Shown here: positions 24,639-43,106 of the stretch, in pieces | Position numbering within the stretch: the first letter of the stretch is position 1 | Layout: every line of letters begins with the position of its first letter | Assembly: GCF_003014475.1 (NCBI RefSeq) | Contig: NZ_PYGJ01000014.1 | Location: 1-64,000, forward strand | Reading direction: 5' to 3' | Origin: Shimia abyssi | GTDB taxonomy: Bacteria; Pseudomonadota; Alphaproteobacteria; Rhodobacterales; Rhodobacteraceae | DNA length: 64,000 nt | The notes under the pieces: generated by a model | Database searches by the model: none | What the model was told of the DNA's origin: nothing | What the model saw: the letters and a program-made list of their open reading frames with translations, nothing else | Made by a program: the position numbers and the translations under genes

Positions 24639-24998
24639 ATGAAGGCATGGGTTTTAACAGCTGCCATACTGGCGACGCCGGTGGCGGCGCAGGAATGGAC
24701 AACGCGGGAGGGCGATACGGTTTTTGACGCCGAAGCACTTAGCGCGCGGCTGTCTGGTCAAACATTGGTGTTTTATGATGATGGCCGATCGGTTTACGAG
24801 GCAGATGGCAAATACAACTACACCTATGGCGGCGGCGGAACGTGGTTTGGCCATTGGGAGACCAAGGGCGATAGCGTGGTTTGCGTGACTTTTGTCACCG
24901 GGGTTGAGCGTTGTGACCGAATTGTTGAAAACGCGGGCAAACTGATTGTGTTAACCGCTGACGGGCAGCGGTTTCCGGTGCGTCCGCAAGAAGGGTAG
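24639..24998 (+). CDS. Small exported protein of unknown function
   Basis: A 119-residue protein with a clear Sec signal peptide (MKAWVLTAAILATPVAAQ, cleavage after AAQ at about 18). The mature part contains the FYDDGRSVYEADGKYNYTYGGGGTWFGHWETKGDSVC-like beta-rich region with two cysteines (CVTF..ERCDR) that could form a disulfide. It resembles small periplasmic proteins common in Rhodobacteraceae; no function is known. GGAGG lies 8 bases upstream of the ATG. It is convergent with the SorC regulator gene. Confidence 0.7.
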   Translation: MKAWVLTAAILATPVAAQEWTTREGDTVFDAEALSARLSGQTLVFYDDGRSVYEADGKYNYTYGGGGTWFGHWETKGDSVVCVTFVTGVERCDRIVENAGKLIVLTADGQRFPVRPQEG

Positions 24999-25015
24999 CC
25001 CGAGCAAGGTCGGAT

Positions 25016-26014
25016 TCAGGATGCGCGCGACAGGATCTGCTCTGCTTGGGAATAGTCCAACACGGCTTGGGCCGTTGTGTCGTCCACAACCAGCGTGCTG
25101 ATGTGCCCACCGTTCAGGGCAGCGCAGGCAGGTTCGACCTTGTCCGCGCCTGTGGCGACGCCGATGCGCACGGGGATATTGAGCGCGTCTTGCAGGGGTA
25201 GGCTGACCAGTCGCGAATTGAGATCGCTGTCACACAACGCGCCCCGCGCATCTACAAGATGGCCCAGTAATTCGGCGCGAACACCGTCGTTATAGAGTTG
25301 TTCGCGATCTGCGGACGAGATTGGGTGGGCGGTGTAGTAAGTCGCGCTTTCACCTGCGACGGCCCCCAGACCGAGCAGCGAGACATCGGCGCGGCGCGCC
25401 TGATCCAGAACATCGCGCACCGAGCGGACCGATAGCACCATGTCGCGTTCCTGTTGTGTGTCCGTGTGTAGCGGTGCATGGATCAGTGTTGCCGTGCCAC
25501 CAAGCCCATCGGCAATTCGGGTCGCGATGTGGTTTACATCGGTATAATGCTGCCCTTGAACGCCACCAGTCATGGGGACGACCACGTTTGAGGTCTGGGC
25601 CCTTGCGTTTAGGTGGTTTGCCACAGCGCTTAGGGTTTTGCCGCCCGAAATCGCCAGAACACTGTCGTCATCCAGCAGGTTCGCCAAATGCTGCGCCGTT
25701 GCTTTGCCGACAAGGTCGAGCGTGGTTTCAGCATTATCTGTCACTGTGTCTACCACCAGACATTCGGCCAGCGGCCAGCGCGCCTTCATCTGGCGCTCCA
25801 GTTCGAACAATCGCTGGAACGGGCTGTGGATTTTAAACTCGACCATCCCCAGTTCCCGCCCTTGCTTGATCAGGCGGTTCACCTTGGCCGTGGACAGCCG
25901 CAAGGCGCTGGCAATTTCTGCTTGCAGCATGCCTTCTTGGAAATGCAGGGTCAGCACCCGTGCGATCAACCTTAATGTTTCGGTGGCAGGTTCACTCGTA
26001 CTCACTCTAGTCAT
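25016..26014 (-). CDS. SorC/DeoR-family sugar-binding transcriptional regulator
   Basis: A 332-residue SorC-type regulator: N-terminal helix-turn-helix (MLQAEIASALRLSTAKVNRLIKQGRELGMVEF) and a C-terminal sugar-phosphate-binding domain with the ISGGKTLSAVANHL, MTGGVQG and IGVATGADKV segments. LsrR (AI-2), EryD (erythritol) and SorC belong here and respond to phosphorylated ligands made by a kinase in the same locus. It overlaps the end of the last permease gene, at the end of the first ABC operon. The TGAAATTTATTNCA motif in front of both operons is a candidate binding site (inference). Confidence 0.88.
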   Translation of the reverse strand: MTRVSTSEPATETLRLIARVLTLHFQEGMLQAEIASALRLSTAKVNRLIKQGRELGMVEFKIHSPFQRLFELERQMKARWPLAECLVVDTVTDNAETTLDLVGKATAQHLANLLDDDSVLAISGGKTLSAVANHLNARAQTSNVVVPMTGGVQGQHYTDVNHIATRIADGLGGTATLIHAPLHTDTQQERDMVLSVRSVRDVLDQARRADVSLLGLGAVAGESATYYTAHPISSADREQLYNDGVRAELLGHLVDARGALCDSDLNSRLVSLPLQDALNIPVRIGVATGADKVEPACAALNGGHISTLVVDDTTAQAVLDYSQAEQILSRAS

Positions 26015-27035
26015 CCTTTCTGCTTACCAAATGATTTGATGCCGCGGCCAGCAGCAATGCGGCGCCGACGACCAGTGTTTGGAAATAGGCAGGTACCAAG
26101 GTCAACATTCCTACTGTCAGCGACATGATGATCAGCGCACCTATAAAGGATTTCAAGACGCGCCCTTCGCCACCGCTGAAGGCTGTACCACCCAAAAGAA
26201 CCACAAGTATAGCGGTCAATTCCATGCCATCCCCGGACAGTGGATCACCCAGCGACATAAAGCTGGAACGGGCAATCCCGGCCAGCGCGGCACAGATGCC
26301 AACAAGGATGTAAAGGGTGATAACCGTGCGCTTGGTGTTGATACCGGAAAGCTCGGCTGCGGTAGGATTGCCACCTGTGGCAGCCGCGTATTTGCCCAGC
26401 TTCATCCGGTCCTGAACAACGATCATCGCAAGTGTCACCAACACCGCCACCCAAAACGCCCAAGGCAGGCCGAGCAATACGCCGTCGCGCCCGTAATCGT
26501 TGAACCATCCCGGCATTTTCAAACCGCCGCCGGATTTTATCGCGGAAACCCCATCTTCAACCAGCAATAGGGCAATGCCTTTGTATAGGCTGAGTGTAAT
26601 CAACGTCGCGATCACCGGCGTGATCTTGAGCCTTATGACCAGAAATCCGTTAATTGCGCCAAGAATGACCCCGACAACAACTGTCGCAGCAAAGGCAGGC
26701 ACAAAGGGCACGCCATTGATGACAAGCATGGCATAAACCACGGCACTCAGGCTCATGGCGCTGCCGACAGAGAGGTCAATATAGCCCGAGATCATCAGGA
26801 GCGTGAACGCACCGGCCAGAGTTAATATCGGTGCAGAGATTCGCAGGATGTTGATGATATTGCGCTCGCTTAAAAAATTGCCACGCTCAAAGAGCGGGAA
26901 TTTATCAAGGTTGGCCGTGCTCAGCACGACCACCACAGCGATGAGTACCAGATAGATGTAGTAGTCTTTGAGAAAGGTCTTGAGCCGTTGGCCAAAGCCG
27001 CGTTCGACGCCCGTTTGCGCGGTTGCATGTGTCAT
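26007..27035 (-). CDS. Sugar-type ABC transporter permease (RbsC/LsrD-like)
   Basis: A 342-residue permease of the BPD_transp_2 (RbsC) family with about nine to ten membrane helices and the family loop SLSAVVYAMLVINGVP / GAINGFLVIRLKITPVIATLITL..YKG. The ATG at 27035 overlaps the stop of the upstream permease (ATGA) and has GGAG 9 bases upstream, so I prefer it to 27062. It should pair with the other permease as a heterodimer, as LsrC and LsrD do. Confidence 0.88.
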   Translation of the reverse strand: MTHATAQTGVERGFGQRLKTFLKDYYIYLVLIAVVVVLSTANLDKFPLFERGNFLSERNIINILRISAPILTLAGAFTLLMISGYIDLSVGSAMSLSAVVYAMLVINGVPFVPAFAATVVVGVILGAINGFLVIRLKITPVIATLITLSLYKGIALLLVEDGVSAIKSGGGLKMPGWFNDYGRDGVLLGLPWAFWVAVLVTLAMIVVQDRMKLGKYAAATGGNPTAAELSGINTKRTVITLYILVGICAALAGIARSSFMSLGDPLSGDGMELTAILVVLLGGTAFSGGEGRVLKSFIGALIIMSLTVGMLTLVPAYFQTLVVGAALLLAAASNHLVSRKDD

Positions 27036-28063
27036 GAAGAATGTCTCCGGGCCAATGCCCATGTCTGCGCCATGATGGCTATGAACACGGCGATGGCCTT
27101 GAGCGTGAATTGCCAGTCCGGGGACAGGACCAAACCCGTCGCCGCAGAAGTGACCGTGGCGAGCACGATCGCGCCAAAAAACATACCGATAACTGACCCG
27201 AAACCGCCCGCAATGGCGACGCCGCCCAACAGGGAAATCACCAGCGCATCAAACTCCATCAACGTGCCCCGGTTGGAAAAGCCGGATTTGAATTCCGACG
27301 CCAGCAAGATGCCAACACCGCCAGCGACCAAGGAGCTAAAGAGGTAAAGATTGACCACGTGCCGCGCATTGTCCACGCCGGACAGGCGCGAGGCGACGGG
27401 ATTTGCGCCAATAAGGTATGTCAGACGACCAAACACTGTTTTGCGCTCGACAAACACCGCAATCAAAATCAGAGCGGCCATCAGCACCACGGGCAGTTTG
27501 ATTGAGGTGCCAAACATTGTCATATTGCCCAATGCGCCAAAATCCGATGGCAGATTTGTGTTGCGCTGCGAGCCTTGCGTGACCACTTGGGCAATGCCTC
27601 GGGCCAGCATCATTGTGCCCAACGTTACAATGATTGACGGTACGCGCAGCACCACGACAAACAGTGCGTTCAACGCCCCTATCATTACTGCACACAGCAA
27701 CGCGCCCATCATTGCCAGCCAGGCTGGCAACCCCCAGCCTGTCGAGAGCGGGTTGGTCCCATCGCTGGCCTGTGCAAACCAAACGGCCATAACGCCGGAC
27801 AGCGCGACGATGCCGCCCACGGACAGGTCAAAATTCCCTGACACCAACAGGAAAGTGACGCCGACACCCAGCGCGATCACCGACCAGTTATTTGTGACAA
27901 GGTTCACAACATTTTGAAACTGAAAGAAATTTGGCACCAGCATTGAGGCCAGCAAGAACAGAACAATTGCTGCGCCCGCAACCAGAGCGGTTATGAACAT
28001 CTCGTCGCTGAGCTTGTTGTCGCGGGCCTGTAGCCGGCGACCGGCGATTGCCTGATCGGTCAT
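27032..28063 (-). CDS. Sugar-type ABC transporter permease (RbsC/LsrC-like)
   Basis: A 343-residue BPD_transp_2 permease with about ten hydrophobic segments and the RbsC-type motifs LSVGGIVALSGV and LRVPSIIVTLGTMMLARG. The start codon overlaps the stop of the ATPase gene and its stop overlaps the next permease (both ATGA), so the three subunits are translationally coupled. Confidence 0.88.
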   Translation of the reverse strand: MTDQAIAGRRLQARDNKLSDEMFITALVAGAAIVLFLLASMLVPNFFQFQNVVNLVTNNWSVIALGVGVTFLLVSGNFDLSVGGIVALSGVMAVWFAQASDGTNPLSTGWGLPAWLAMMGALLCAVMIGALNALFVVVLRVPSIIVTLGTMMLARGIAQVVTQGSQRNTNLPSDFGALGNMTMFGTSIKLPVVLMAALILIAVFVERKTVFGRLTYLIGANPVASRLSGVDNARHVVNLYLFSSLVAGGVGILLASEFKSGFSNRGTLMEFDALVISLLGGVAIAGGFGSVIGMFFGAIVLATVTSAATGLVLSPDWQFTLKAIAVFIAIMAQTWALARRHSS

Positions 28064-29571
28064 GTGCCTGCTTTACCCCCACCTGTTACGATATTCAGAA
28101 TTTTGGGAATATCGACCGTTGCGCCATTCCGGATTTCTGCTTCGACCCGGCCGTCATACATCAGGAATATGCGGTCGCAGAGGCCCAGCACTTCTTCTAA
28201 TTCAGACGAAAACACACAGACCGCCCGACCAGTATTGGCAAAGTCGCGGATCAGATCATAGATTTCAGATTTCGCGCCCACATCTACACCGCGTGTCGGT
28301 TCGTCCAACAAAAGCAAATCGGCGTCGGCAAACAGGCATTTGGCCAAGACCACCTTTTGCTGGTTTCCTCCGGATAGTTTTTCCGCATATTTTTCGACAG
28401 AATTGGTCGCGATACCCAGCTTGCTCACGTATTCCTTGGCAACGGACTTTTCCTGGTCATCCTGAAAAATGCCGAACTTTGCCAGTTTGTTGATATTCAT
28501 GATTGGTATGTTGCGCCGAATAGTCAGCGCCGTGAACAGGCCCTCTGTGCGCCGTTCCTCCGGCACCAGCGCGATGCCAGAGGCGATTGCCTCTTTCGGG
28601 GATCGTGCGCGGGGCCGTCCTTTGAATGTGACCTGCCCATGAGCCTTGTCCGCACCATAGATTGCACGGGCAACTTCTGTCTTGCCCGCACCGACAAGGC
28701 CATAAAAGCCAATAATCTCGCCCGCGTTGACCTGAAACGAAACATCTTTGAGCAGGTGCGAGTTCAAGCCTTTGACAGTTAGAACCGGGTTATCGGCAAT
28801 GTCGCCTCGCGGTCGATAGTCGTGTGTGATGGAACGTCCCACCATCATTTCGATCAACTCGGGGCGACCGTTTACCTGCGCAAGCGGTTTGGTTGCGATG
28901 TGTTTGCCGTCACGCATCACCGTGACATTGTCGCCCAGCTCAAATATCTCGTCTAGCTTGTGTGAGATGTAGATCACGGTCACGTCGCTGTCGCGCAATC
29001 GCCGGATCACGCCAAACAAGCGCTCCACTTCGCGCTCTGACAGGGCGGCGGTCGGTTCGTCCATGATGATAATATTCGCCCCGGAAGAGGCGGCACGGGC
29101 AATCTCGACGATCTGTTTTTGCGCCACGCTCAGCGACGATACACGCGCATTTGGGTCAATGCCTGGTTCAATGGCGGCGAGGGTTTTTGTGACCCGATCC
29201 TCCAGATCAGACTTGATCAGGAACCCAAATCTGCTGACTTCCATCCCCATCGTGAGGTTTTCCAGTACCGTCAACTGGTCCACAACGTGCAGCTCCTGAA
29301 ACAACGTGCCGATGCCGCCATTGCGCGCATCCTGTGTGCTGTTGGGCTGATAGGGTTTTCCCAGAACGGCCATTGTCCCGCTGGTTGGTTCTAAAGCCCC
29401 CGTCAGCATCTTGACGATGGTTGATTTGCCGGCGCCGTTTTCGCCAACAAGGCAGTGCACTGTATTCGGCTCGATATCGAATGACACGGTATCCACGGCG
29501 CGCACGCCAGGATAATCCTTGGTCAAATCCTTGATGGACAGAGCTTTTTCTGCAAGTGCGGTCTGCACCAT
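28060..29571 (-). CDS. Sugar ABC transporter ATP-binding protein (RbsA/LsrA-like, two ATPase halves)
   Basis: A 503-residue protein with two ABC domains. The first has Walker [10 protein letters not shown], a divergent signature (LSVAQKQIVEIAR) and Walker B IIIMDEPTAALS. The second has GLVGAGKTE, the signature [13 protein letters not shown] and [12 protein letters not shown]. This layout is typical of RbsA/MglA/LsrA. I chose ATG 29571 (GGGGAAG just upstream) over TTG 29592. It lies after a strong intergenic stem-loop that separates it from the binding-protein gene. Confidence 0.9.
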   Translation of the reverse strand: MVQTALAEKALSIKDLTKDYPGVRAVDTVSFDIEPNTVHCLVGENGAGKSTIVKMLTGALEPTSGTMAVLGKPYQPNSTQDARNGGIGTLFQELHVVDQLTVLENLTMGMEVSRFGFLIKSDLEDRVTKTLAAIEPGIDPNARVSSLSVAQKQIVEIARAASSGANIIIMDEPTAALSEREVERLFGVIRRLRDSDVTVIYISHKLDEIFELGDNVTVMRDGKHIATKPLAQVNGRPELIEMMVGRSITHDYRPRGDIADNPVLTVKGLNSHLLKDVSFQVNAGEIIGFYGLVGAGKTEVARAIYGADKAHGQVTFKGRPRARSPKEAIASGIALVPEERRTEGLFTALTIRRNIPIMNINKLAKFGIFQDDQEKSVAKEYVSKLGIATNSVEKYAEKLSGGNQQKVVLAKCLFADADLLLLDEPTRGVDVGAKSEIYDLIRDFANTGRAVCVFSSELEEVLGLCDRIFLMYDGRVEAEIRNGATVDIPKILNIVTGGGKAGT

Positions 29572-29656
29572 CTTCCCCTTGTTTCTATTCAATTCACTCT
29601 CATGACGTTTTCAGTACGGCCATTAAAGAGAGCTTAGCGGAGTTTTGGCGAACGTT

Positions 29657-29702
29657 CACCAGCCCGTCCCAACACGGGAGTGATTGGGCCGAAGGGCTGG
29701 TG
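29657..29702 (-). repeat. Intergenic stem-loop after the first binding-protein gene
   Basis: Perfect 9-base arms CACCAGCCC (29657-29665) and GGGCTGGTG (29694-29702) with an inner CCCGT/ACGGG pairing. It lies between the substrate-binding gene and the ATPase gene. Such hairpins in ABC operons often protect the upstream message and lower downstream expression. A similar one lies at 41800-41831. Confidence 0.6.
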
Positions 29703-29722
29703 ACGTTGCTGTTGCTGCTCGA

Positions 29723-30760
29723 TTAACCGCCGAACTGGTCTTTTAGCCACTGTTCCGCGTCAGATTGAGGCATGCTCCAATATGATACGGTGTAAGCTTT
29801 GTAGAAGAACTCTTCCGCTGTGTCGGACTTTGCGGCGACTTTGCCGTCCAGAACATCCATGATCAGGTCAATCCGCCCATGTGCCGTTTCGACAGGCGGC
29901 AGACCCATTGACACCTTGAGGCTGGAATTTGGGTCATAGACCTGTTCAAACTCGACCGAGTCAAAGTCGACGCTGGCAACGATTTCAGTCAGCGGCTTTC
30001 CGTTGTCGAACTTGCCGCGACCCAGTTGTGCCAATCCGGCCATCGTACCAACTGTCAGGTTTGAGGCCTCTGAGTAGATCAGGTTCACCTCGGGGCGCTG
30101 CGTTAGCAGGTCGACGATGATCTGCTTGGCCGCTTCCTGGCCTTTGCTGCTATCCAACGCGCCAAGGTTCTCGGCACTTGGGTCAATCGACAAAACGCCT
30201 TCGGCGAATGGTGCTGTGCGGCCAGAGTTCACCTCGGTGTGGTTTGGCCATCCCAGTTGTACCATGACAATTGGCGTGTCTGGATGTGCCTCTTTCCAGG
30301 CTTTGGCCATCTCTGCGCCCATCTCGAACGACACGGCGGCCTCGTCGCTGCGTGCGGTCGGGATACCTGTATCTGTAATCGGGCTGAAAAATGACGTCAT
30401 CACGATGTCATCCGCCAACGCATCCTCGACACCCGGCGTCGCGGCCTCTGCGTCCCAGATGTGCAGTGTCGCGGCATCAAAGCCACCTGCAACAACCTGA
30501 TCGACGTTTTGGGTCATGACTGCCGAATCCGCACGTCCGTCAAAAACCACAACCTCTGCACCATACTTCTCCTTGGCATATCGCTGGGCCTCGGCGGCCT
30601 GAGATTGGTGAAATACGTTTGAAAGATCCGAGACAAAGAAAGCGATACGCTTTCCGTCTGCTGCAATTGCGCCGGTGCCCCCGGCAATGATCAAAGTCGT
30701 CGCCATCAGGCCCGCTTTGATAAGTGTCCTCCGCTGCATTTTTCTCGCTTCCCTTTTCAT
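29723..30760 (-). CDS. Periplasmic sugar-binding protein of ABC transporter (RbsB/LsrB type)
   Basis: A 345-residue periplasmic-binding-protein-1-type receptor with a signal peptide carrying an RR pair (MKREARKMQRRTLIKAG, then a hydrophobic stretch to AIAADG at about 35). The mature sequence KRIAFFVSDLSNVFHQSQAAEAQRYAKEKYGAEVVVFDG is typical of the LsrB/RbsB superfamily. GGAGGAAAAA precedes the ATG. It is the first gene of operon 1 (binding protein, ATPase, two permeases, SorC regulator). The ligand is unknown. Confidence 0.88.
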   Translation of the reverse strand: MKREARKMQRRTLIKAGLMATTLIIAGGTGAIAADGKRIAFFVSDLSNVFHQSQAAEAQRYAKEKYGAEVVVFDGRADSAVMTQNVDQVVAGGFDAATLHIWDAEAATPGVEDALADDIVMTSFFSPITDTGIPTARSDEAAVSFEMGAEMAKAWKEAHPDTPIVMVQLGWPNHTEVNSGRTAPFAEGVLSIDPSAENLGALDSSKGQEAAKQIIVDLLTQRPEVNLIYSEASNLTVGTMAGLAQLGRGKFDNGKPLTEIVASVDFDSVEFEQVYDPNSSLKVSMGLPPVETAHGRIDLIMDVLDGKVAAKSDTAEEFFYKAYTVSYWSMPQSDAEQWLKDQFGG

Positions 30761-31030
30761 TTTTTCCTCCTAAAGCGTGGCGCGCTGACGTGGGTCAGAT
30801 CGCCGGACCGCCATCCCATAATCCATCTCAAATTGGCGAAATGAAATTTATTGCAGTCTATGTTATTTTTGCCAATAGAAGGTTATGTGTCAATTGTTTT
30901 CTGGAAATTTGCGCGCGCAATTATTACTATCTAGAATGAGGCAATATCTTTTCTAACTAATTGAAAATAAATGTATAAAATTGACACATCCGTGGCTTGA
31001 TCGCCCGGTATTTTGAAGACACAAAAACAA
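30761..31030. promoter_or_regulatory. AT-rich control region of the first ABC operon
   Basis: No gene is visible in this stretch. Reading the minus strand, a TTGACA at about 30892 is a possible -35 element for the binding-protein gene; the -10 is weak. Downstream of it lies TGAAATTTATTGCA (30842-30855), which recurs in the second operon's promoter region. A perfect 11-base inverted repeat ATGTGTCAATT / AATTGACACAT brackets 30885-30989. Confidence 0.5.
30842..30855. promoter_or_regulatory. Putative SorC-type operator, first operon
   Basis: TGAAATTTATTGCA, matching TGAAATTTATTACA at 43016-43029 at 13 of 14 positions. Both lie upstream of ABC binding-protein genes on the minus strand, and the only sugar-type regulator in the region is the SorC protein. 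Confidence 0.5.
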
Positions 31031-31031
31031 C

Positions 31032-31060
31032 CAGAAAATCGTGTCCGTCACGATTTCTGT
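31032..31060 (-). terminator. Terminator of the second (long) operon
   Basis: On the minus strand, AAATCGTG-ACGGA-CACGATTT (31056-31036), extended by flanking CAG/CTG, forms a stem-loop followed by a T-rich tail (GTTGTTTTTGTG). It lies about 45 bases beyond the stop of the ABM-domain gene, the last gene of the operon. Confidence 0.6.
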
Positions 31061-31102
31061 TAGCGCCCAAACAAACGGTTAGAAACGAATCTCTTTTTGG
31101 CG

Positions 31103-31387
31103 TCAGATGGTTTGAAGTTTCTGAACTGCGACCTCGGCGCGACCACTGATTTCGGTCTTGAATCGGGCGATGTGATCTGTTGACCCGTGCGCCAAAAGCG
31201 ACTCTTGATCGGCCCAAATTTCGTGGATCAACGTCAATCCGAATTGCGTTTCAGACACAAATATTTCGTAGGCAAGACACCCATTTTCGGAGCGGGTTGC
31301 AGCGGCCAAACGTTCGATTGCCTCAGAGACAATTTCAGCTTCCTTTTCCCGTGCCATAATCCGGGCGAGGACTGTGATTTCGGTCAT
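31103..31387 (-). CDS. ABM-domain protein (quinol monooxygenase / LsrG-like)
   Basis: A 94-residue single-domain protein of the antibiotic-biosynthesis-monooxygenase (ABM) fold: ITVLARI strand, an amphipathic helix, RSENGCLAYEIFVSE (the E-x-G-C/N-x-x-Y signature), LIHEIWAD and the HGSTDHIARFK helix. YgiN-type quinol monooxygenases and the AI-2-phosphate isomerase LsrG share this fold and size. It is the last gene of the long operon, 1 base after the GMC oxidoreductase. An Lsr-like role is suggested only by the other genes present. Confidence 0.75.
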   Translation of the reverse strand: MTEITVLARIMAREKEAEIVSEAIERLAAATRSENGCLAYEIFVSETQFGLTLIHEIWADQESLLAHGSTDHIARFKTEISGRAEVAVQKLQTI

Positions 31388-31388
31388 T

Positions 31389-33008
31389 TCACGCGCCCTT
31401 CCGGATCATGTCAGCAGCCTTTTCTGCAATCATGATCACAGGTGAAGCGGTATTGCCAGACACGATTTTCGGCATGATTGACGCGTCGATCACCCGCAAT
31501 CCGTTCAGCCCGTGCACCCTAAGGTCTGGACCCACGACGGCACTTGGATCAGAGCCCATTTTGCAGGTTCCGACCGGGTGGAAAATTGTCGTGCCAATGT
31601 CGCCTGCTGCGCGCACCAAATCGGCCTGATCTGCGACGGTTGGACCAGGCAAAATCTCTTCTGGTGCATGTGGCACGAGGGCCTTAGCCGACATGATTTC
31701 TCGCGCCTGACGCACCGATTCCGCCGCGACGTGTTTGTCGCGCTCCGCTGAGAGATAGTTCAGACGAATTTCTGGTTGCACGTGGCGGTCATTCGACTGG
31801 ATATGGCAATTTCCTACGCTTTCAGGACGCAAATTGCATACCGACATCGTGATGGCGGGGAAGGGATGCAGCGGGTCGCCCAGTTTATCGGTCGACAAAG
31901 GCTGAACGTGGTATTCCAAGTCTGGTGTTTCCAGCGAGGGATCAGACTTGGTGAACATACCAAACTGGCTGGGTGCCATAGACATTGGCCCCTTTTGGGT
32001 CAGTGCATACTGCAAGCCGATCTTCATCTTGCCAATTGGGCTATTGGCCAGAGTATTCAGAGTTCTGGCGTTTTGAACCTTGTAAACAGTCCGAATTTGC
32101 AAGTGATCCTGAAGGTTCTCGCCAACCCCTTCACTTTGATGCCGCGTATCTATACCGAATTGGGACAGCACTTCATGTGGTCCAATGCCCGACAATTGCA
32201 GGATTTTGGGCGAATTGATCGCACCCGCCGCCAGCAAGACTTCGGCCTTAACCTGGGCTGAGTAGGTCGTTCCACGGCGGTCATACCGCACCCCAGTGAC
32301 TTGCCTTCCCTCAAGTTCCAGCGTCTCAACTTCGGCTTCGGTCACAACTCTCAGATTTTTGCGCTTGAGTGCCGGGCGCAGGAACGCCTTGGATGTGTTC
32401 CACCGCACGCCGTTCTTTTGGTTTACTTCAAAAAAACCGCTGCCCTCGTTGTTTCCGTCGTTGAAATCGCTCCTTGGCAACACGCCAAATTCTTTTGCGC
32501 CCTCTTGCACGGCTTTGAGGATATCCCACTCCAGCCGTTGCTTGGACACTTTCCATTCACCGCCCTGCTGGTGCAGATCGCTGCTTTCAGAATGGTGATC
32601 TTCGGATTTCAGGAAATAGGGCAACACATCGTCCCAGCCCCAACCCGTATTGCCCATCTGTCTCCATTGATCGTAGTCCGCCGCCTGACCTCGCATATAG
32701 ATCATGCCATTGATCGAGCTGCACCCGCCCAAAACCTTGCCACGCGGATAGACAAGGCTGCGCCCGTTCAGGCCCGGTTCGGGGGCGGTTTTCATCATCC
32801 AATCAGTGCGGGGATTACCGATGCAATAGAGATACCCGACCGGGATATGAACCCAGTGGTAATTGTCGGACTTGCCCGCCTCGAGCAGCAAAACACGCGT
32901 CTTTGGGTTTTCGCTCAGCCGATTGGCCAAAACGCAGCCGGCTGTTCCCGCGCCAACAATGATATAATCGTAATCCCCATCCAGACGGGGCGGAGTCTTG
33001 GTGTTCAT
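31389..33008 (-). CDS. GMC-family FAD-dependent oxidoreductase (choline dehydrogenase-like)
   Basis: A 539-residue GMC oxidoreductase: FAD site DYIIVGAGTAGCVLA near residue 15-29, the GMC signatures around PRGKVLGGCSSINGMIYMRG and GAINSPKILQLSGIGP, and C-terminal catalytic FHPVGTCKMG (His) plus NTASPVIMIAEKAAD. Known relatives oxidise alcohols such as choline or polyethylene glycol and pass electrons to the respiratory chain. In this operon it may oxidise a hydroxyl of the imported compound or a side product. It is preceded by the zinc-type dehydrogenase (17-base gap). Confidence 0.88.
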   Translation of the reverse strand: MNTKTPPRLDGDYDYIIVGAGTAGCVLANRLSENPKTRVLLLEAGKSDNYHWVHIPVGYLYCIGNPRTDWMMKTAPEPGLNGRSLVYPRGKVLGGCSSINGMIYMRGQAADYDQWRQMGNTGWGWDDVLPYFLKSEDHHSESSDLHQQGGEWKVSKQRLEWDILKAVQEGAKEFGVLPRSDFNDGNNEGSGFFEVNQKNGVRWNTSKAFLRPALKRKNLRVVTEAEVETLELEGRQVTGVRYDRRGTTYSAQVKAEVLLAAGAINSPKILQLSGIGPHEVLSQFGIDTRHQSEGVGENLQDHLQIRTVYKVQNARTLNTLANSPIGKMKIGLQYALTQKGPMSMAPSQFGMFTKSDPSLETPDLEYHVQPLSTDKLGDPLHPFPAITMSVCNLRPESVGNCHIQSNDRHVQPEIRLNYLSAERDKHVAAESVRQAREIMSAKALVPHAPEEILPGPTVADQADLVRAAGDIGTTIFHPVGTCKMGSDPSAVVGPDLRVHGLNGLRVIDASIMPKIVSGNTASPVIMIAEKAADMIRKGA

Positions 33009-33025
33009 TCGTTTTTCGGTCTTGT

Positions 33026-34042: not shown

Positions 34043-34053
34043 GGCGCATCTCC

Positions 34054-35556: not shown

Positions 35557-36391
35557 GGTTATAGATATCCCATGCTTTTTCGCCGTCCGCGTTGTTGTGG
35601 ATCATTGCCATCAACGCGGCGACAACGGCTTTTGGGTTGTTATGCTGATAGATATTGCGCCCATAAACCATGCCCTTTGCGCCCTGAGCGATCATTGCGG
35701 CGGATTTCATCAACACAGTTTTGAGGTCTTCTTTGCCCCCGCCCCGCACCAGAACCGGCACGCGGGCGGCCTCGACCACACGATGGAAATCTTCGGGGTT
35801 TTCAGTGGGGTCGGCCTTTATTATGTCCGCGCCCATTTCCGAGGCGAGCCGCGTCAAAGTTACGATTTTTTCGGCGTTACCATCCACCTGATACCCACCG
35901 CGCACGTCATTGGGCAGCATCACCAACGGTTCGATCATCAGCGGCATTCCGTATTTGCGACATGCCTCGCGCACACGGCTGATATTGTCGACACATTGGC
36001 GGAACAACTCCGGTTCGTCCGGCAACATGAACAAGTTCACAACCACCGCCGCCGCATCCATTTCCAGCGCGCCAATGATCGGCTCGTCAGCGTTTTGCAA
36101 CATCGACCACATAATGCGATGGCGCTGGTCGTTATAAGGGTTGCCCATGTCGATACGCATCACCAGCGCTGGTTTGTCTTTCTCCGGGCGGTTTTGCAGC
36201 AGATCCGCCTGACCATAGGCGCATTGTATCGCGTCCGGTTTGGCCCTGATCAGCGTATCCATCACGCCGGGCATGTCCTCCAGACCAACCATAAAGCTGG
36301 GTTCGTTGCAGACGCCGTGATCAATTGCGACGTCCAGACAGCCGCCATTGGTAAACATCCGATTCATGCGGGCTTTGGTGCTTACGCGCAT
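35549..36391 (-). CDS. DhnA/LsrF-type class I aldolase
   Basis: A 280-residue protein of the DhnA/LsrF class I aldolase group: LDVAIDHGV near the start (the A-x-DHG motif), a Schiff-base lysine in ADIIKADPTE, the phosphate-binding VPVLVRGGGKEDL and GAKGMVYGRNIYQ..NP. The last two motifs are shared with LsrF. It lies between the kinase (8-base overlap) and the FAD dehydrogenase (10-base overlap), so all three are coupled and probably act in sequence. I infer cleavage or thiolysis of a phosphorylated keto compound. Confidence 0.85.
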   Translation of the reverse strand: MRVSTKARMNRMFTNGGCLDVAIDHGVCNEPSFMVGLEDMPGVMDTLIRAKPDAIQCAYGQADLLQNRPEKDKPALVMRIDMGNPYNDQRHRIMWSMLQNADEPIIGALEMDAAAVVVNLFMLPDEPELFRQCVDNISRVREACRKYGMPLMIEPLVMLPNDVRGGYQVDGNAEKIVTLTRLASEMGADIIKADPTENPEDFHRVVEAARVPVLVRGGGKEDLKTVLMKSAAMIAQGAKGMVYGRNIYQHNNPKAVVAALMAMIHNNADGEKAWDIYNRG

Positions 36392-38103
36392 TCTGTTCTC
36401 CGTTCATTGTGTCCTGTGGTCAGGGCATCGGGGCTTACGCCGTAATACTCTGTCAGTTCGTGGATGAGCGCCTCTTGCTGTTGCTTGATGCTTTCGGCGC
36501 TCAGGTCGCGCTCTTGGGCAAGGATCGCACTCAGGGCGTCCAGTACGCCCGATGTCATCTGTCCGGTGATTGCCAGTGCGGTACGACGCAGCGCGATATC
36601 CGAAAGCGTTTCAATATATTCCGTGCGCAACAGCCAGCTAATTTCGGCTTGTGAGTAAGGGCTTCCCGAGATCAGTGGGGCGTCATTTTGCGTCAGGCAG
36701 AACCGCGCCACGTCGTGTGCGTTGCTGCCATAGTGATCGATCAAATGGGCCGCGCGGTTAGGAGAGAGGGCAAAGGCGTCGCTCAGTTTGCGGGCCAGAA
36801 CTTCTGGTGTTTCGCGAAACCCCGCGCCGCCGCCAATGGGTAAATTCAGTGTCGAGAGACGGCGCTCGCGCCCGATTTCGGCCAGCACCATCTCGCCTGT
36901 CTGCTCGGCAAAGGCGCGAAATGTGGTCCATTTGCCCCCAACCATGCAGAATTGCACAGGCGCGCCAGCGAGTCGGCGCGTGTCGTGGCCGCGTGAAATC
37001 CGCCCGGTGAAATCATGGTCGCTTTTGGGTAGTGGGCGAATGCCGGAATAACTGAACACAACTTGATCCGGCGTGACGTCGATTTCCGGGAACACCAATC
37101 TAAGCGAGCCAAGAATATAGTCCCGCTCGTCCGGTTCACAGCGCACGCGTGTTGCCTTGTCGACGCGAATATCGGTCGATCCGGCCAAAACCTTTCCCTG
37201 ATAGGGAAAGACAATGCACACCCTGCCGTCGGTGTTTTCAAAATACACCATGTGCTCGCCAAGCGCATTAAGCAGCGCGGCGTTGTCGATGATCAGGTGT
37301 GACCCTTTGGTGCCTGACACCATCGTTTCATTTGCTCCGCCGCCCAGGCTTTGGACCGTGTCGTCCAGCCATGCTCCAGTCGCGTTCACAATTACCTTGG
37401 GATTGACGCTAAGGGTCTCGTCACTGCGGCGGTCGGTGACGTGGTACGCCGCGCCGTCTTTGTGCATCTCCGCATAGTTGAAGGCCGCACATTCCGGTGC
37501 CGTCGCAGCAATATCGCGGATCATTTCCACGCAAAGCCGTTCTGGATGTGTGATTTGCGCGTCGTGATACACGGCGGAACGGGTCGCCTTGTCTGTTAGT
37601 GCGGGCCAGAACCGGCGGGTTTGCGCACCTGTGTTGAAATGATGTTTGGGCAGTACACGGCGTTTGCGTGTAACCCAGTCATAAAGTGACAGCCCCAGCT
37701 TGATCGGTACGGCGCCACGGCTGGATGGCTTTCCAGTGCCGCCGAAAAAACTAGCGGCGGCGTTGAACACCCCGGAAAATGTTGAGGTGATTGGAATGAC
37801 TGTCGGCAGTGGATGAACCATATGCGGCGCATTTCGCAAAAGCGCGTCACGCTCTTGCAACGACTCGCGCACCAGATCGAATTCACCATTCTCAAGATAG
37901 CGCAGCCCACCGTGGATCATCCGTGATGGCGCTGCGCTACAACCTGATGCAAAGTCGTTGCGCTCAACCAACAATACCCGCAGCCCTTGCAAGGCAAGCT
38001 CGCGATAAACGCCTATCCCATTGACGCCGCCGCCTATCACGACAACGTCGAAATCCGCGTTGCTGCGCAGCTGTGTCAGGGTCTGTTGTCGTTGGTCTGA
38101 CAT
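36382..38103 (-). CDS. GlpD-like FAD-dependent sugar-phosphate dehydrogenase
   Basis: A 573-residue protein homologous to aerobic glycerol-3-phosphate dehydrogenase: FAD loop DVVVIGGGVNGIGVYRELA, the GlpD signature FASGCSAAPSRMIHGGLRYLENGEF, and VFSYSGIRPLPKS, with a C-terminal helical domain. Some GlpD-like enzymes in polyol operons (for example EryB) oxidise other polyol phosphates. Because it is coupled to a kinase and aldolase, oxidation of a polyol phosphate to a keto-phosphate is the likely step (inference). It probably passes electrons to ubiquinone at the inner membrane. Confidence 0.85.
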   Translation of the reverse strand: MSDQRQQTLTQLRSNADFDVVVIGGGVNGIGVYRELALQGLRVLLVERNDFASGCSAAPSRMIHGGLRYLENGEFDLVRESLQERDALLRNAPHMVHPLPTVIPITSTFSGVFNAAASFFGGTGKPSSRGAVPIKLGLSLYDWVTRKRRVLPKHHFNTGAQTRRFWPALTDKATRSAVYHDAQITHPERLCVEMIRDIAATAPECAAFNYAEMHKDGAAYHVTDRRSDETLSVNPKVIVNATGAWLDDTVQSLGGGANETMVSGTKGSHLIIDNAALLNALGEHMVYFENTDGRVCIVFPYQGKVLAGSTDIRVDKATRVRCEPDERDYILGSLRLVFPEIDVTPDQVVFSYSGIRPLPKSDHDFTGRISRGHDTRRLAGAPVQFCMVGGKWTTFRAFAEQTGEMVLAEIGRERRLSTLNLPIGGGAGFRETPEVLARKLSDAFALSPNRAAHLIDHYGSNAHDVARFCLTQNDAPLISGSPYSQAEISWLLRTEYIETLSDIALRRTALAITGQMTSGVLDALSAILAQERDLSAESIKQQQEALIHELTEYYGVSPDALTTGHNERRTECA

Positions 38104-38153
38104 GGCGTGTCCGTATTGTTAATGGGCTTGGGTAATGTGGGTGGAGCTGGCAA

Positions 38154-39149
38154 TCAGCTGTCCAGATCGCTCAAATGCGCGCGCGCCTGCGCCTCGATCT
38201 CGGCGATCTGATCAGCGCTCAGCCGCAGCATCCCCGCCTTGGCATTCTCGGTCGCCTGCGATGCATCGCGTGCGCCGCAGAGCGAAAAGGTGATGCCCGG
38301 CTGTTGAACAGTCCAGGCAATCACTGTCTGGGCCAGCGTGGCGCCGTGCGCTTGTGCAATGGGTGTTATGGCTTGCATCAGGTCAGCCACCTTTTGGCGG
38401 TTGGCCATGGAAAACCGCGGGTTGTCCTTGCGCTGATCATCGCCTTCAAACACGCGGTCCGGGCCGATTTTGCCGCTGAGCAACCCGAGTGCCAGAGACG
38501 AGTAGCTGAGAACCGACACGCCATTGTCGCGACACACCGGCAGTAGCGTGCCCTCGATGTCGCGTTTGACCATCGAATATTCTTCCTGAATGGCATCCAG
38601 CTGACCCGCAGCGATGTAGGCCTGTGTTTCTTCGACCGAGGTGTTGCTGGCCCCGATAGAGCGGATCTTGCCCTGAGATTTCAGCGCCTCAAGCGCTTCC
38701 ATCGTTTCGTCAATCGGGGTGGTCGGATCCTGCCAATGGGTGATGTAGTGATCGATATAGTCAGTCCGCAGCCTCTTAAGGCTTTGTTCCACCTCATAGA
38801 TTATCGCATCTTTGCCTAGATAACGGTGCACCGGCGCACCATCGAAGTCAAAGAAGTGGTTGCCCTTTTGCGTATGCCAGACCAGTCCGCATTTGGTGGC
38901 CAAGACCACTTTGTCGCGCCGCTCTTGCAGGGCCTTGCCAACAATGTCTTCGGCTACACCCTGGCCATAGGCCGGGGCAGTGTCGATCAAGGTCACGCCA
39001 GCATCGACCGATGCTTGAATTGCTGCGATGGACTTGGCCTCGTCGGTGCCGCCCCACATCCAGCCGCCAATAGCCCATGTGCCCAGCCCGATCACCGAGG
39101 CCTGAATGCCCGAATTGCCAATCTCCCGTGTCAGCATGTCACCGGTCAT
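38154..39149 (-). CDS. Aldo/keto reductase
   Basis: A 331-residue aldo/keto reductase with the catalytic tetrad visible: Asp and Tyr in LIDTAPAYGQG, Lys in VVLATKCG and His in YIDHYITHW. C-terminal PGITFSLCGARDASQATEN fits the NADPH-binding end. The open frame runs on to 39527 through non-coding sequence; the ATG at 39149 with AAGGAAGGA upstream is the start that matches the family. It is in the operon between the second permease and the FAD dehydrogenase, so it probably interconverts an aldehyde or ketone with an alcohol in the same pathway. Confidence 0.88.
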   Translation of the reverse strand: MTGDMLTREIGNSGIQASVIGLGTWAIGGWMWGGTDEAKSIAAIQASVDAGVTLIDTAPAYGQGVAEDIVGKALQERRDKVVLATKCGLVWHTQKGNHFFDFDGAPVHRYLGKDAIIYEVEQSLKRLRTDYIDHYITHWQDPTTPIDETMEALEALKSQGKIRSIGASNTSVEETQAYIAAGQLDAIQEEYSMVKRDIEGTLLPVCRDNGVSVLSYSSLALGLLSGKIGPDRVFEGDDQRKDNPRFSMANRQKVADLMQAITPIAQAHGATLAQTVIAWTVQQPGITFSLCGARDASQATENAKAGMLRLSADQIAEIEAQARAHLSDLDS

Positions 39150-39226
39150 TGCTCTGTTCCTTCCTTGTCCTGTGGTGCGGCCGTTGCAGCATATTTGTTG
39201 TTGGGCTGGTGAGCGGCATTGCGCAC

Positions 39227-40228
39227 TCACGCCCGCCTTTTGTTGAGGTAATGATCTATCGTAACTGCGGCGAGCAGGATCGAGCCGCGAATAATATCCT
39301 GCCAGTAGACGGACACATCCAGCAACGCCAAGGAGCTGGAGACCAGAGACAACAGAATCACACCCAGAATGGCCCCAAGGATCGACCCCGAGCCGCCGTT
39401 CAGGCTCGCCCCGCCAATGACCGCTGCCGCGATGATAGTCAGCTCTAATCCCAATCCGAATGTCGGTTGGGCCGATCCAAACCGCGCCATGTAGATAATG
39501 CCGGCAACACCACACAGAGTTGAACACAGCGTGGTTGTCAGAAAGATCACCTTTTTGGTGCGAATACCGGAATAGGCCGCGGCCTTTTCGTTGCTGCCGG
39601 TATAGAAAACTTTGCGAAACATCGTCGTGCGGCGCAGCATAAAGTCAAAAGCGATCACAAAGACGAGGAAGATCACGATCACAATCGGGATCGGGCCGAT
39701 TGTGCCCTGGCCGATGAACTTGAACTCTGGTGGCAGTGTATAAAGCCCCAGCGGACGGCCACCGGTGAACAACAGGCAGGCACCCCGTGCAATCACCATG
39801 ACCGCCAGCGAAACGATGAAATGATGAAGCCCGATGCGGGTGACGAAAAACCCCATAAACGCCCCGATCCCGGTGCATAGTGCGATGGAAATGCCCGATG
39901 CGACCCATGGGTCAATGCCGCTCAGAAACAGCCACCCCGCGATCACCATCGCCAACGCCGTGACCGACCCGACCGACAAGTCAATTCCGCCGGAAATCAG
40001 CAGGATCGTCATCCCAACGACAAGAATGCCATCGACGGCAAACGCCATTGACATCGCCCGCATGTTTGCCCAAGTCAGAAAGTAAGGCGAGGCGAAGGAC
40101 ATGATGAAAAACAGTCCAAGAATGATCACGATCAGCCCGGTTTCCCGCATCCGCAGCAGCCGTTTGTAAAATGGTGCGGCCTCTGCTGAAACGGTGCCTT
40201 CACCTGCCAGGTTAGCTGTGCTGTCCAT
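39227..40228 (-). CDS. Sugar-type ABC transporter permease (RbsC-like), second transporter
   Basis: A 333-residue BPD_transp_2 permease with about ten hydrophobic segments, DGILVVGMTILLISGGIDLSVG and GLHHFIVSLAVMVIARG as family landmarks. Unlike the first transporter, there is only one permease gene, so it should form a homodimer as RbsC does. It lies 14 bases after the ATPase gene. Confidence 0.88.
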   Translation of the reverse strand: MDSTANLAGEGTVSAEAAPFYKRLLRMRETGLIVIILGLFFIMSFASPYFLTWANMRAMSMAFAVDGILVVGMTILLISGGIDLSVGSVTALAMVIAGWLFLSGIDPWVASGISIALCTGIGAFMGFFVTRIGLHHFIVSLAVMVIARGACLLFTGGRPLGLYTLPPEFKFIGQGTIGPIPIVIVIFLVFVIAFDFMLRRTTMFRKVFYTGSNEKAAAYSGIRTKKVIFLTTTLCSTLCGVAGIIYMARFGSAQPTFGLGLELTIIAAAVIGGASLNGGSGSILGAILGVILLSLVSSSLALLDVSVYWQDIIRGSILLAAVTIDHYLNKRRA

Positions 40229-40242
40229 TGTCTTCTCAGCCC

Positions 40243-41763
40243 TTATGCAACTGCTGCGTCCGCATCCATGACCGAGGCCAGATGCATTATGTTTTCTTCT
40301 GTCATCGCGTCACCAGCGACCTGCCCGCTGATGCGCCCTTCACGGACCACCAGCACCCGGTCGCAAACCCCGATCAGTTCAGGAAGTTCGGATGAGATCA
40401 CGACAATCCCCACACCGTCATGCGCCAGGTCCCGCAAAATACGGTGAATTTCCGATTTGGCGCCGACGTCGACACCGCGTGTCGGCTCATCCAGAAAGAT
40501 CAGGCGCGGGTTCACCGATAACAGTTTGGCCAGCGCCACCTTTTGCTGGTTACCACCAGAGAGCGACGATACCGGGTCACTTAGGGAGCCGCATTTCAGG
40601 TTCAGCTTGCGTCCTAATGCGTCCGCCTGAGCCATTTCTGCGCCCGATTGGATCAGGCCCATGCCATTGGCCACCTGTTCCAGCTTTAATGCAGAAATAT
40701 TGGCGGCAATCGGCAAGTCCAAAAACACGCCATCTCCTTTGCGATCCTCTGAAAGATAGACAATCCCGTTGGCGATGCTGTCTTGATAATTCTTCAGCTT
40801 GAGCGGCGTACCATTGAGTAAAACGTCACCACTGACGCTGCCCTCTAACTGGCAGATACCTTTGACAATCTCGCTACGCCCCGCGCCAATCAATCCGGCA
40901 ATCCCGAGGATTTCGCCACGCTTGAGGGCAAAAGAGACATCGTGAAACCGCTTCGCGTCGCTCAGGTTACGCACTTCGAGTATGGCCTCGTCACTTCGTG
41001 CTTCTGCGCGTTGTTTTTCCGGGTAAAGCTCATCGATCACGCGCCCGACCATGGCGTTGACCACGTCGCTGGGCCCAACGTCTTTTACGTTTTGGGTGAC
41101 AATATGCTGCCCGTCACGAAACACCGAAACCCGGTCGCAATTGTCAAAAATCTCAACCATCCGGTGCGAGATATAGATGATGGAAATGCCCTGATCGGCC
41201 AGTCGACGCATGATTGCGAACAGCGTTTGTGCCTCGGCTTCGGTCAGGGCGGCGGTTGGTTCGTCCAGAATGAGGATGCGGCAATCCAGTGTTAGCGCCT
41301 TGGCGATCTCGACCAGCTGCTGGTTCGAAATTGACAGGCTTTTGACCAGAACCGAAGGATCAATGTCGCTGAGCTGCTTGAAGACATCGATGGCTTCGCG
41401 CTCAAGCTTGCGGTAATCCATCAGCCACGACCGGCTGACATTGGTTTTGGCCATAAAGATATTTTCGGCCACGGACACATCCGGGCACAGGGCGATTTCC
41501 TGATGTACAAACCCAATGCCAAGCCGCTGCGCCTTTGTTGGCGAAGTGATCTTGACCGAAGCGCCATCCAAAATGATCTGGCCGCTATCGGGTTGCAGGA
41601 TGCCGTCGATCACATTCATCAGCGTCGACTTACCCGCACCATTTTCCCCGGCGATCGCGTGGATCTCTCCTTTTCGGAGCTCAAAATCGATCCCACGCAA
41701 TGCTTTGACCGGGCCAAAGGACTTGCTGAGGTTCGAGATGTTGAGGATCACATCGTCTTGCAT
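40243..41763 (-). CDS. Sugar ABC transporter ATP-binding protein (RbsA-like), second transporter
   Basis: A 506-residue double-ABC ATPase. First half: Walker [10 protein letters not shown], signature-region [15 protein letters not shown], Walker [13 protein letters not shown]. Second half: GLIGAGRSE (the degenerate P-loop usual in the second half), [13 protein letters not shown] and [12 protein letters not shown]. It is separated from the binding-protein gene by a GC-rich stem-loop. Confidence 0.9.
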
Positions 41764-41799
41764 TGCGCTACCTGTTCAGGGGCATGGTGAAAAGAGGGT

Positions 41800-41831
41800 T
41801 GGCCGCCCGCAGCGCTGGGCACGGGCGGCCA
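41800..41831 (-). repeat. Intergenic stem-loop after the second binding-protein gene
   Basis: Perfect 10-base arms TGGCCGCCCG (41800-41809) and CGGGCGGCCA (41822-41831). It occupies the same place in this operon as the 29657-29702 hairpin in the first, between the binding-protein and ATPase genes. Confidence 0.65.
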
Positions 41832-41837
41832 GTTGGG

Positions 41838-42854
41838 TCAGGACGCGTCGCGGCCATCCATGTACACATTCAAGTCAAAGCTGTCGGCGTTGTCCTGGGT
41901 GATCACGGCAAACCCGTTGTCCACAAATGGGATCTGCACGGGGTTGAAACCGCTGGTTTTCCAATCGTTGAACGGATCAAAGATCTCGGAACGGTTGGCC
42001 ATATGCACCGCCATAAAGCCCATGAACCCTTGAACACCTTGGTTGGGGTTCAGCGACATATGGATATTGCCGGCGCGGATATGTTCCAACGTGGTTGGTG
42101 TCACGTCGGCGTGCATGATCAAGATGTCAGAACCTGCTTCCAACTTGGCAGCTACGGCTCCTTCTGCTGAACCGGCTTCCGGTATCCAGATAGCTGCGAC
42201 TTCTGGATTGGCCTGAATGATCGATGAAGTGGCGCGATAGGCTGCGTTGCTGTCCTGATTTGTTGCCTGACGTCCGACCAGTTTCATGTTCGGATAGTTC
42301 GCTTCCATATAGGCGATCAGGGACGTGACGCGCAGGTCGTGATTGGATTGCCCCGGGTTTTCCAGAACCGCATATTCGGCGCTGTCGCCGACCTGTTTGA
42401 CGATCTCTTCCGCTGCAAATTTTGCCTCGGCGTGGTTGTCAGACGTGATGTAGGCGGTGCGGTTCGATTTGGGTGAATCCGCCGCGAATGTCACGATCTC
42501 GGTTCCATTACCAATCGCGCGATTAATCGGTTCAATGAACGGGTCCGACTGCATCGGATGCAACAACACGCCGGCGGGCGATTTCACCATGTCCTGCTCG
42601 AACGAAGCAATCTGCTTGGTGATGTCGTAATCCGGTGTGCCTGAGAATACTGTCTCACACCCAAACGCCTCTGCGGCTTGTTTGAACCCTTGATAGACTG
42701 GCACCCAATAAGGATGGCCGGACACCATGACGTTCATGATATAGGTTTCGCCCGGCTCGCACATGATGCCCTCTGCGGATGCAGGTGCACTGGTCATTCC
42801 TGCGGCTGCAATGACGGCGGGCGCAATTAATCCGTTTACTTTCAGATGTTTCAT
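41838..42854 (-). CDS. Periplasmic sugar-binding protein of ABC transporter, second transporter
   Basis: A 338-residue periplasmic-binding-protein-like receptor with a Sec signal peptide (MKHLKVNGLIAPAVIAAAG, then a small-residue cleavage site at ASA near 27). The mature YIMNVMVSGHPYWVPVYQGFKQAAEAFG is typical of type-1 sugar receptors. GGGAGGAG lies upstream of the ATG at 42854. It is the first gene of a minus-strand operon of ten genes running to 31103. The ligand is unknown. Confidence 0.88.
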   Translation of the reverse strand: MKHLKVNGLIAPAVIAAAGMTSAPASAEGIMCEPGETYIMNVMVSGHPYWVPVYQGFKQAAEAFGCETVFSGTPDYDITKQIASFEQDMVKSPAGVLLHPMQSDPFIEPINRAIGNGTEIVTFAADSPKSNRTAYITSDNHAEAKFAAEEIVKQVGDSAEYAVLENPGQSNHDLRVTSLIAYMEANYPNMKLVGRQATNQDSNAAYRATSSIIQANPEVAAIWIPEAGSAEGAVAAKLEAGSDILIMHADVTPTTLEHIRAGNIHMSLNPNQGVQGFMGFMAVHMANRSEIFDPFNDWKTSGFNPVQIPFVDNGFAVITQDNADSFDLNVYMDGRDAS

Positions 42855-42999
42855 AGAACTCCTCCCAAGAGCTTGCCCTTGCGGTGTCTTGACATTCTTC
42901 CTCCAAGAACATCACGATTGCAAGAAATTTCACAAAGCGCTTATTTTTGCACTGCCTAATGCATAATGGGAGAGCTGTAGAATCGTCAACCAGAATTTG

Positions 43000-43029: not shown

Positions 43030-43042
43030 CACCATCTGAACA

Positions 43043-43075: not shown

Positions 43076-43106
43076 GTCTGGTTCAATCGCGGCTGACTTA
43101 GAGAGG

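Follow-up and report, generated by a model that had tools for sequence, protein, structure and literature searches.

Related systems and the accessory island

The described systems closest to the gene set considered here are the lsr operon, the ery cluster of rhizobia and Brucella, and the glycerol GlpK/GlpD pair. The gene set itself is a block of 15 genes in Shimia abyssi, within a 64,000-nucleotide stretch (positions 1 to 64,000 of contig NZ_PYGJ01000014.1) referred to below as the window. The block runs from 42854 down to 25016, with every gene on the minus strand, and probably constitutes an accessory catabolic regulon for a polyol or a close derivative, with two importers and one SorC regulator. 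All gene classes listed in an earlier note on this DNA are present where it had placed them.

The note had called the set lsr-like, which holds for gene classes: SorC, FGGY, periplasmic binding protein (SBP), double ATPase, two permeases, DhnA-type aldolase and ABM are common to both. Unlike lsr, of which a GlpD-like flavin adenine dinucleotide (FAD) dehydrogenase is not a known part, the block adds a GlpD-like gene, an aldo/keto reductase (AKR), a GMC oxidoreductase and a second importer, and every Lsr cut-off tested is missed. Scores and cut-offs in bits are 204.6 and 528 for LsrK, 104.2 and 297 for LsrF, 147.4 and 486 for LsrR, and 39.7 and 384 for LsrB (with the first binding protein, SBP1; the second, SBP2, has no match to this model). 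The two ATPases reach 438.8 and 382.6 of the 586 bits required for LsrA, and the permeases at most 140.6 of 388 for LsrC and 106.4 of 500 for LsrD. The ABM protein (PF03992) has no NCBIfam match at 1e-5, the presence of an LsrG model in the library being unchecked. The genome shows no LuxS match, which by itself is no bar to uptake of autoinducer 2 (AI-2), and no LsrF above the cut-off; the control of the latter search matched in 5 of 14 genomes including E. coli, none above the cut-off, and its sensitivity at that level is unproven. An LsrF from Sagittula passes the LsrF model in hmmscan. The lsr assignment was rejected on the family cut-offs and the missing LuxS match.

The ery cluster, which consists of EryABCD and EryEFG and includes tetrulose-phosphate isomerases, resembles the block at the level of gene classes, namely FGGY kinase, GlpD-like dehydrogenase, SorC-family regulator and CUT2-type importer. 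It differs in that the block has a class I aldolase, AKR and GMC and matches no isomerase family (none among 15 proteins by NCBIfam, none among 10 by Pfam). The glycerol pair likewise joins an FGGY kinase to an FAD dehydrogenase acting beside the phosphate; the block, in contrast, adds an aldolase, and the genome has a separate GlpK/GlpD-like pair on contig C17. Given this pair and the scores for GlpD (287.1 of 360 bits) and GlpK (116.9 of 590), the glycerol assignment was rejected as well. The combination fits neither lsr nor the ery cluster in the form given above, as the note had stated; it is, however, no one-off, since its enzyme order recurs in the 87 related loci examined.

The block is an accessory island of about 18 kb (24999–43106), situated between a gene for a 119-amino-acid protein (24639–24998) and a gene at 43107–44276. 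Another genome of the genus, G210, has the counterparts of these two genes side by side, at 225785–226951 and 226961–227293 on contig C3, and the distance between the matched gene ends is 12 nt (both stop codons counted), compared with 18.1 kb in the window. The order found by tblastn in both genomes is SMC, the 119-amino-acid gene, the 43107 gene, CobD-like and CobC-like, with the SMC and Cob names presumed by us from sequence. No match to the aldolase, SBP1 or SBP2 was found in G210. A single relative cannot tell gain from loss; gain is favored, because the core aldolase (at least 63% identity) occurs in only 15 of 295 genomes of the family.

Operon types, cassette exchange and the shared operator

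Relatives were found by tblastn in plasmids and by a scan of one genome per species, with loci picked by the aldolase. The scan gave 287 stretches encoding a relative, of which the best 80 were kept; 7 of the 10 annotated plasmid loci fetched were counted, leaving out the variants L043 (Sagittula) and L044 (Rhizobium) and a second Sinorhizobium meliloti locus (L046). The resulting 87 loci are nearly all labelled Alphaproteobacteria, the exceptions being L100 (Marinicella) and L110 ('bacterium'), and comprise 65 loci of type A, 18 of type B, 3 having both importers (AB) and 1 cut short (L096). The type-A order is SBP1, ATPase 1, permease 1, SorC, AKR, GlpD-like, aldolase, FGGY, an optional MDR gene and GMC. 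Type B starts with SBP2, ATPase 2, permease 2, permease 3 and SorC (in L106 permease 2 stands ahead of the ATPase), followed by the type-A enzyme set. The AB loci (L049, L051 and L052), all from Ruegeria, carry each importer with its own SorC.

The enzyme order recurs across the loci examined; together with the adjacency of the flanking genes in G210, this speaks against a chance grouping of the genes. At the identity thresholds applied, and with loci cut by contig ends scored as misses, AKR, GlpD-like and aldolase genes are each found in 65, 18 and 3 loci of types A, B and AB, respectively, FGGY in 64, 17 and 3, GMC in 55, 15 and 3, MDR in 9, 12 and 3, and ABM in 4, 1 and 3. The gene set is a widespread operon type with a second, interchangeable importer-regulator cassette, not a one-off mixture. 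As for unassigned neighbors (named by eye), clusters that are ABC-ATPase-like occur in 17 of the 87 loci, aldehyde-dehydrogenase-like in 12 and short-chain-dehydrogenase/reductase-like in 9; as a clue to the substrate they were rejected, being in few loci with varying places and strands. Ruegeria sp. Alg231-54 has a type-B (L053) and a type-A (L064) operon, both with enzymes, on separate contigs, and in L032 (Alloyangia pacifica plas3) the GMC gene at 14778–15850 is annotated as two pieces.

In the window, the type-A importer consists of SBP1 (41838–42854, PF13407), the double-domain CUT2-type ATPase 1 (40243–41763) and permease 1 (39227–40228), and the type-B importer of SBP2 (29723–30760, PF13407), ATPase 2 of the same type (28060–29592), permease 2 (27032–28063) and permease 3 (26007–27062), ATPases and permeases being assigned by NCBIfam. 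The SorC-family gene that ends the block (25016–26014) is the only regulator gene recognised within the island, and its product scores 199.5 bits on the SorC sugar-binding domain PF04198 (cut-off 27), so that it belongs to the SorC family. It is 74–77% identical to the second SorC found in each of the three AB loci, 47–61% to type-B and 44–50% to type-A SorC proteins. In the SorC tree it belongs to a starred set of 16 rows, in which its companions are of type B in 14 cases and AB in one; the type-B lineage needs 2 changes on this tree, so the separation is imperfect. Type-A and AB loci have the type-A SorC gene between permease 1 and AKR; the window lacks it and has only a 77-bp gap there. Because the window SorC is of the type-B lineage and the type-A SorC is missing, the window is a hybrid of a type-A operon without its own SorC and a type-B importer with SorC but without a second enzyme set.

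The enzyme tree was built from concatenated AKR, GlpD-like, aldolase and FGGY sequences of the window and of the 84 of 87 loci that have all four (85 rows). On this tree 3 changes are required for type B, at least 2 of them forced by starred branches. For the approximately unbiased (AU) test we took 49 rows (all 17 type B, 4 with both importers and 28 of 64 type A). Among trees that keep the 17 type-B enzyme sets together, even the best is rejected, with p-AU 0.0009. Since the type-B enzyme sets do not form one clade, importer-regulator cassettes have been exchanged around one enzyme pathway. Of the 295 genomes of the family, 4 have SBP2 and 12 have SBP1; the core aldolase accompanies SBP2 in every case and SBP1 in 11. 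Of the 15 core-aldolase genomes, 10 have SBP1 only, 3 SBP2 only, 1 both (the window genome) and 1 neither (G073); in 14 of them SBP1 or SBP2 is on the contig of the aldolase. ATPase 1 and ATPase 2 are 38% identical.

Both promoter regions carry a common 14-bp operator sequence. Motif scan and weight matrix place two sites upstream of SBP1, TGTAATAAATTTCA (43016–43029, minus strand) and TGCAAGAAATTTCA (42919–42932, plus strand), and one upstream of SBP2, TGCAATAAATTTCA (30842–30855, minus strand). In the related loci, k-mer counts give ATAAATTTCA in 38 of 64 type-A promoters and 5 of 22 SBP2 promoters, and the 14-mer TGAAATAAATTTCA (at least 11 of 14 positions) precedes the importers in 57 of 64 type-A and 17 of 18 type-B loci, compared with a shuffled mean of 2.1 per set. 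The weight matrix was trained on relatives alone, for types A and B separately and with the window and AB loci excluded; its top three sites in the window are the three named above, all within the two promoter regions. The degenerate form TGNAAKAAATTTCA, which was chosen after the window sites had been seen, matches exactly these three sites in the window with at most one mismatch (0.18 expected).

Across the 4.73-Mb genome, exact TGNAAKAAATTTCA occurs three times, always at the island, and with at most one mismatch 12 times versus 4 for the reversed control. Five genomes of relatives contain 10 such sites versus 0 in controls: 5 agree with promoters of the clusters (L049 accounts for two, and L085, L113 and L047 for one apiece), and a sixth is identical in sequence to the site in the L064 promoter. 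Operator-like sites also precede the binding-protein genes of S. meliloti L041 (13 of 14) and Sagittula L043 (12 of 14). Because the operator is common to both promoters and all exact sites in the genome are at the island, the two promoters probably form one regulon. This makes it unlikely that the genes are not induced together, an outcome the earlier note had named as speaking against its proposal. Site 30842–30855 starts 9 nt after a −10-like hexamer, which would be a suitable place for a repressor to bind.

Enzymes, candidate route and rival explanations

The GlpD-like FAD dehydrogenase (36382–38103; DAO and DAO_C domains by NCBIfam and Pfam) aligns with E. coli GlpD (2qcu) across IHGGLRY, SGIRPL and GGKWTT and keeps the substrate-site motifs; the corresponding motifs of GlpD hold its phosphate and keto site. 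His64, Arg68, Tyr69, Arg356 and Lys391 do not vary among the 87 proteins compared, of which the window's is one. The aldolase (35549–36391) is a DhnA-type class I member of the DeoC/LacD family, with 187.5 bits on PF01791 (cut-off 23.8) and Lys192 conserved. Its Asp24, Glu154, Lys192 and Gly-Arg-Asn 244–246 are invariant in 88 of 88 proteins, again including the window; Lys192 is presumably the Schiff-base lysine, judging from sequence alignment and what is known of the family. According to Foldseek, the entries nearest to its AlphaFold model (mean pLDDT confidence 83.6) are those of Methanocaldococcus jannaschii ADH synthase with fructose 1,6-bisphosphate (FBP) or covalent dihydroxyacetone phosphate (DHAP). 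LsrF and archaeal FBP aldolase come next, with LacD- and YihT-type enzymes at a greater distance. These five DHAP-forming kinds of aldolase have the fold, the aligned Schiff-base lysine and the phosphate-site glycines in common with the island aldolase; their Foldseek rows, however, are 14–27% identical to it, and ADH synthase has a three-residue alignment gap at the invariant Glu154.

Among the remaining enzymes, the FGGY carbohydrate/polyol kinase (34054–35556, NCBIfam and Pfam) has AI-2 kinase as its best match in the PDB. For the AKR (38154–39149, NCBIfam and Pfam, start corrected), the closest sequences are general stress protein 69, a putative oxidoreductase and IolS; for the GMC oxidoreductase (31389–33008, NCBIfam and Pfam), they are a chloramphenicol-inactivating oxidoreductase and choline and alcohol oxidases. 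Neither comparison names a substrate. The optional MDR gene (33026–34042) encodes a zinc-binding alcohol dehydrogenase family protein with 399 bits on TIGR02817 (cut-off 284).

The earlier note had suggested import, phosphorylation, oxidation and aldol cleavage. In view of the invariant residues and the fold match to Schiff-base aldolases of DHAP, this likely remains the simplest route. Two CUT2-type ABC importers would bring in the polyol or close derivative, and the kinase would phosphorylate a terminal hydroxyl. The GlpD-like flavoprotein would then oxidise the carbon next to the phosphate, passing electrons to quinone and giving a ketose 1-phosphate, which the aldolase, forming a Schiff base with its lysine, would split into DHAP and an aldehyde three carbons shorter. 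AKR, GMC and optionally MDR may interconvert substrate or aldehyde. The one SorC protein would repress both promoters via the common operator until an intermediate relieves it. A linear C4–C6 polyol is our weak guess at the substrate, with a pentitol slightly favored because its cleavage would give glycolaldehyde.

Several observations weigh against this scheme. A second copy of the module in one genome (L163; G112, contig C6, 122000–141000) has importer, SorC, AKR, GlpD-like, FGGY and GMC genes without an aldolase, and cleavage as the third step may therefore not be universal; neither this locus nor the type-B locus L053 has an operator site of at least 12 of 14 positions. L162 (9683–16342; G073, contig C6) consists of GlpD-like, aldolase, FGGY, MDR and GMC genes, without importer, SorC, AKR or operator. 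L164 (G040, contig C14) carries AKR and an importer of the SBP1 type alongside distantly related DhnA aldolase and FGGY kinase genes, and no GlpD-like gene was detected in the 17 kb fetched. On plasmid p3 of Sagittula sp. MA-2 (L043, 3699–13606) the order is SBP, ATPase, permease, SorC, GlpD-like and FGGY, and a true LsrF (499 bits, cut-off 297) and a RhaD-like class II aldolase replace the island-type aldolase; this set fits a ketose 1-phosphate intermediate, yet shows that the third step varies. Moreover, the FGGY kinase scores best on a xylulokinase model (256.8 of the 380 bits needed), and its substrate may be a sugar. SBP1 and SBP2 have no significant BLASTP similarity and may carry different compounds, the structure model of SBP2 is poor (pLDDT 37), and 4 of the 10 operator-like sites in genomes of relatives could not be placed at a cluster promoter.

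As for details of these variants, L163 adjoins a GlpK/GlpD-like pair and has no aldolase gene between GlpD and FGGY, the L162 aldolase is 93% identical to that of the window, and L164 likewise has no operator site of at least 12 of 14. No substrate is indicated by the Rhizobium and Sagittula variants. More distant aldolases (47–54% identity) occur in 7 of 295 genomes, and PfkB-like kinases, judged by eye, are present in two of three contexts fetched for them. The aldolases of L127 and L129, about 50% identical to the window's, sit among PfkB-like kinases (by eye), in L129 also near Gfo/Idh-like oxidoreductases. This lineage of aldolases may therefore have roles in further pathways.

The xylulokinase score, together with AKR being found in 86 of 87 loci and the undetected GlpD-like gene in L164, suits a sugar pathway, in which AKR would reduce an aldose (or GMC oxidise a polyol), the kinase would give the ketose 1-phosphate directly and the GlpD-like enzyme would be a side branch. 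We regard this as unlikely, since 85 of the 87 loci, and even the aldolase-less L163, contain both a GlpD-like and an FGGY gene, and the invariant GlpD site residues fit a kinase-then-oxidation pair. Far less probable still is an Lsr system that has diverged and handles AI-2 or a related signal by import, phosphorylation and degradation. The PDB match of the kinase, the LsrF-like fold of the aldolase, the SorC and ABM domains and the Sagittula locus, which pairs FGGY and GlpD-like genes with true LsrF, all point towards it; against it stand the missed Lsr cut-offs, a genome with neither a LuxS match nor LsrF above the cut-off, and the distribution of genes, with GlpD-like in 87 of 87 loci and ABM-like in a minority (8 of 87 at identity thresholds, at least 11 when small open reading frame clusters are added).

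Compatible with the polyol scheme, and a real possibility although short of an even chance, is that the two importers carry different substrates into one enzyme set. The dissimilarity of SBP1 and SBP2 agrees with this, as does the retention of both importers, each with its own SorC, in the three AB loci of Ruegeria. However, types A and B alternate around one enzyme set at more than one place in the tree, and a single operator is common to both promoter kinds.

Transcription units and implications

Families were assigned to 15 of 15 proteins by NCBIfam and 10 of 15 by Pfam; among the best NCBIfam matches listed (at most 25 per protein), TIGR02817 is the only model whose cut-off was reached. 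Transcription probably proceeds in two units, the former containing SBP1, ATPase 1, permease 1, AKR, GlpD-like, aldolase, FGGY, MDR, GMC and the optional ABM-domain gene (31103–31387, PF03992), and the latter, after a 342-nt gap between ABM and SBP2, SBP2, ATPase 2, permease 2, permease 3 and SorC. The overlaps of the kinase, aldolase and FAD dehydrogenase genes claimed in the earlier note are real: 10 nt for GlpD-like/aldolase and 8 nt for aldolase/FGGY. FGGY and MDR overlap by 22 nt solely with the TTG start at 34075, and the ATG at 34042 is another possible start of MDR. The mechanical AKR reading frame (from 39527) is over-long; the ATG at 39149 is accompanied by the ribosome-binding-site-like AGGAAGGAA.

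The 342-nt gap contains a terminator-like stem-loop (31035–31057) after the first unit and a sigma-70-like promoter TTGACA-17-AAAAAT (30865–30893) before the second, both on the minus strand and consensus matches only. Another such stem-loop on this strand (41800–41831) lies between SBP1 and ATPase 1; with twelve pairs and a T-rich tail, it could favor excess binding-protein mRNA. The scan gave 7 promoter-like sites versus 9.9 in shuffles and 23 terminator-like sites versus 18.7, so these candidates rest on position only.

Close orthologues with the same gene order, which the earlier note would have counted against it if characterised, do exist; no characterised one was found. The open-licence literature, which covers neither most subscription papers nor any supplements, yielded no description of the operon, nor did passages of PMC11005471, PMC3454389, PMC11302038 and PMC4581636. 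SMb20504 (a table in PMC12542648; locus tag guessed), SMb20854-6 (PMC2597717) and SMb20484-7 (PMC4961836) could not be tied to the operon.

Regarding the family as a whole, we lean slightly towards an undescribed, chiefly alphaproteobacterial pathway for a plant or algal polyol with a new aldolase lineage, in which two unrelated types of cassette could be exchanged since both SorC lineages keep the operator and in which, in the present island, one SorC took over both promoters. Many Alphaproteobacteria, both marine and plant-associated, carry the module. Among them is the model symbiont S. meliloti, where the aldolase of strain 1021 is on pSymB (518533–519375 of NC_003078.1) and two annotated strains have the type-A operon. 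The 14-bp operator is a handle for assigning the whole family, and its combination with exchangeable cassettes presents a clear example from nature of the way in which a catabolic regulon may switch inputs while its wiring stays the same.

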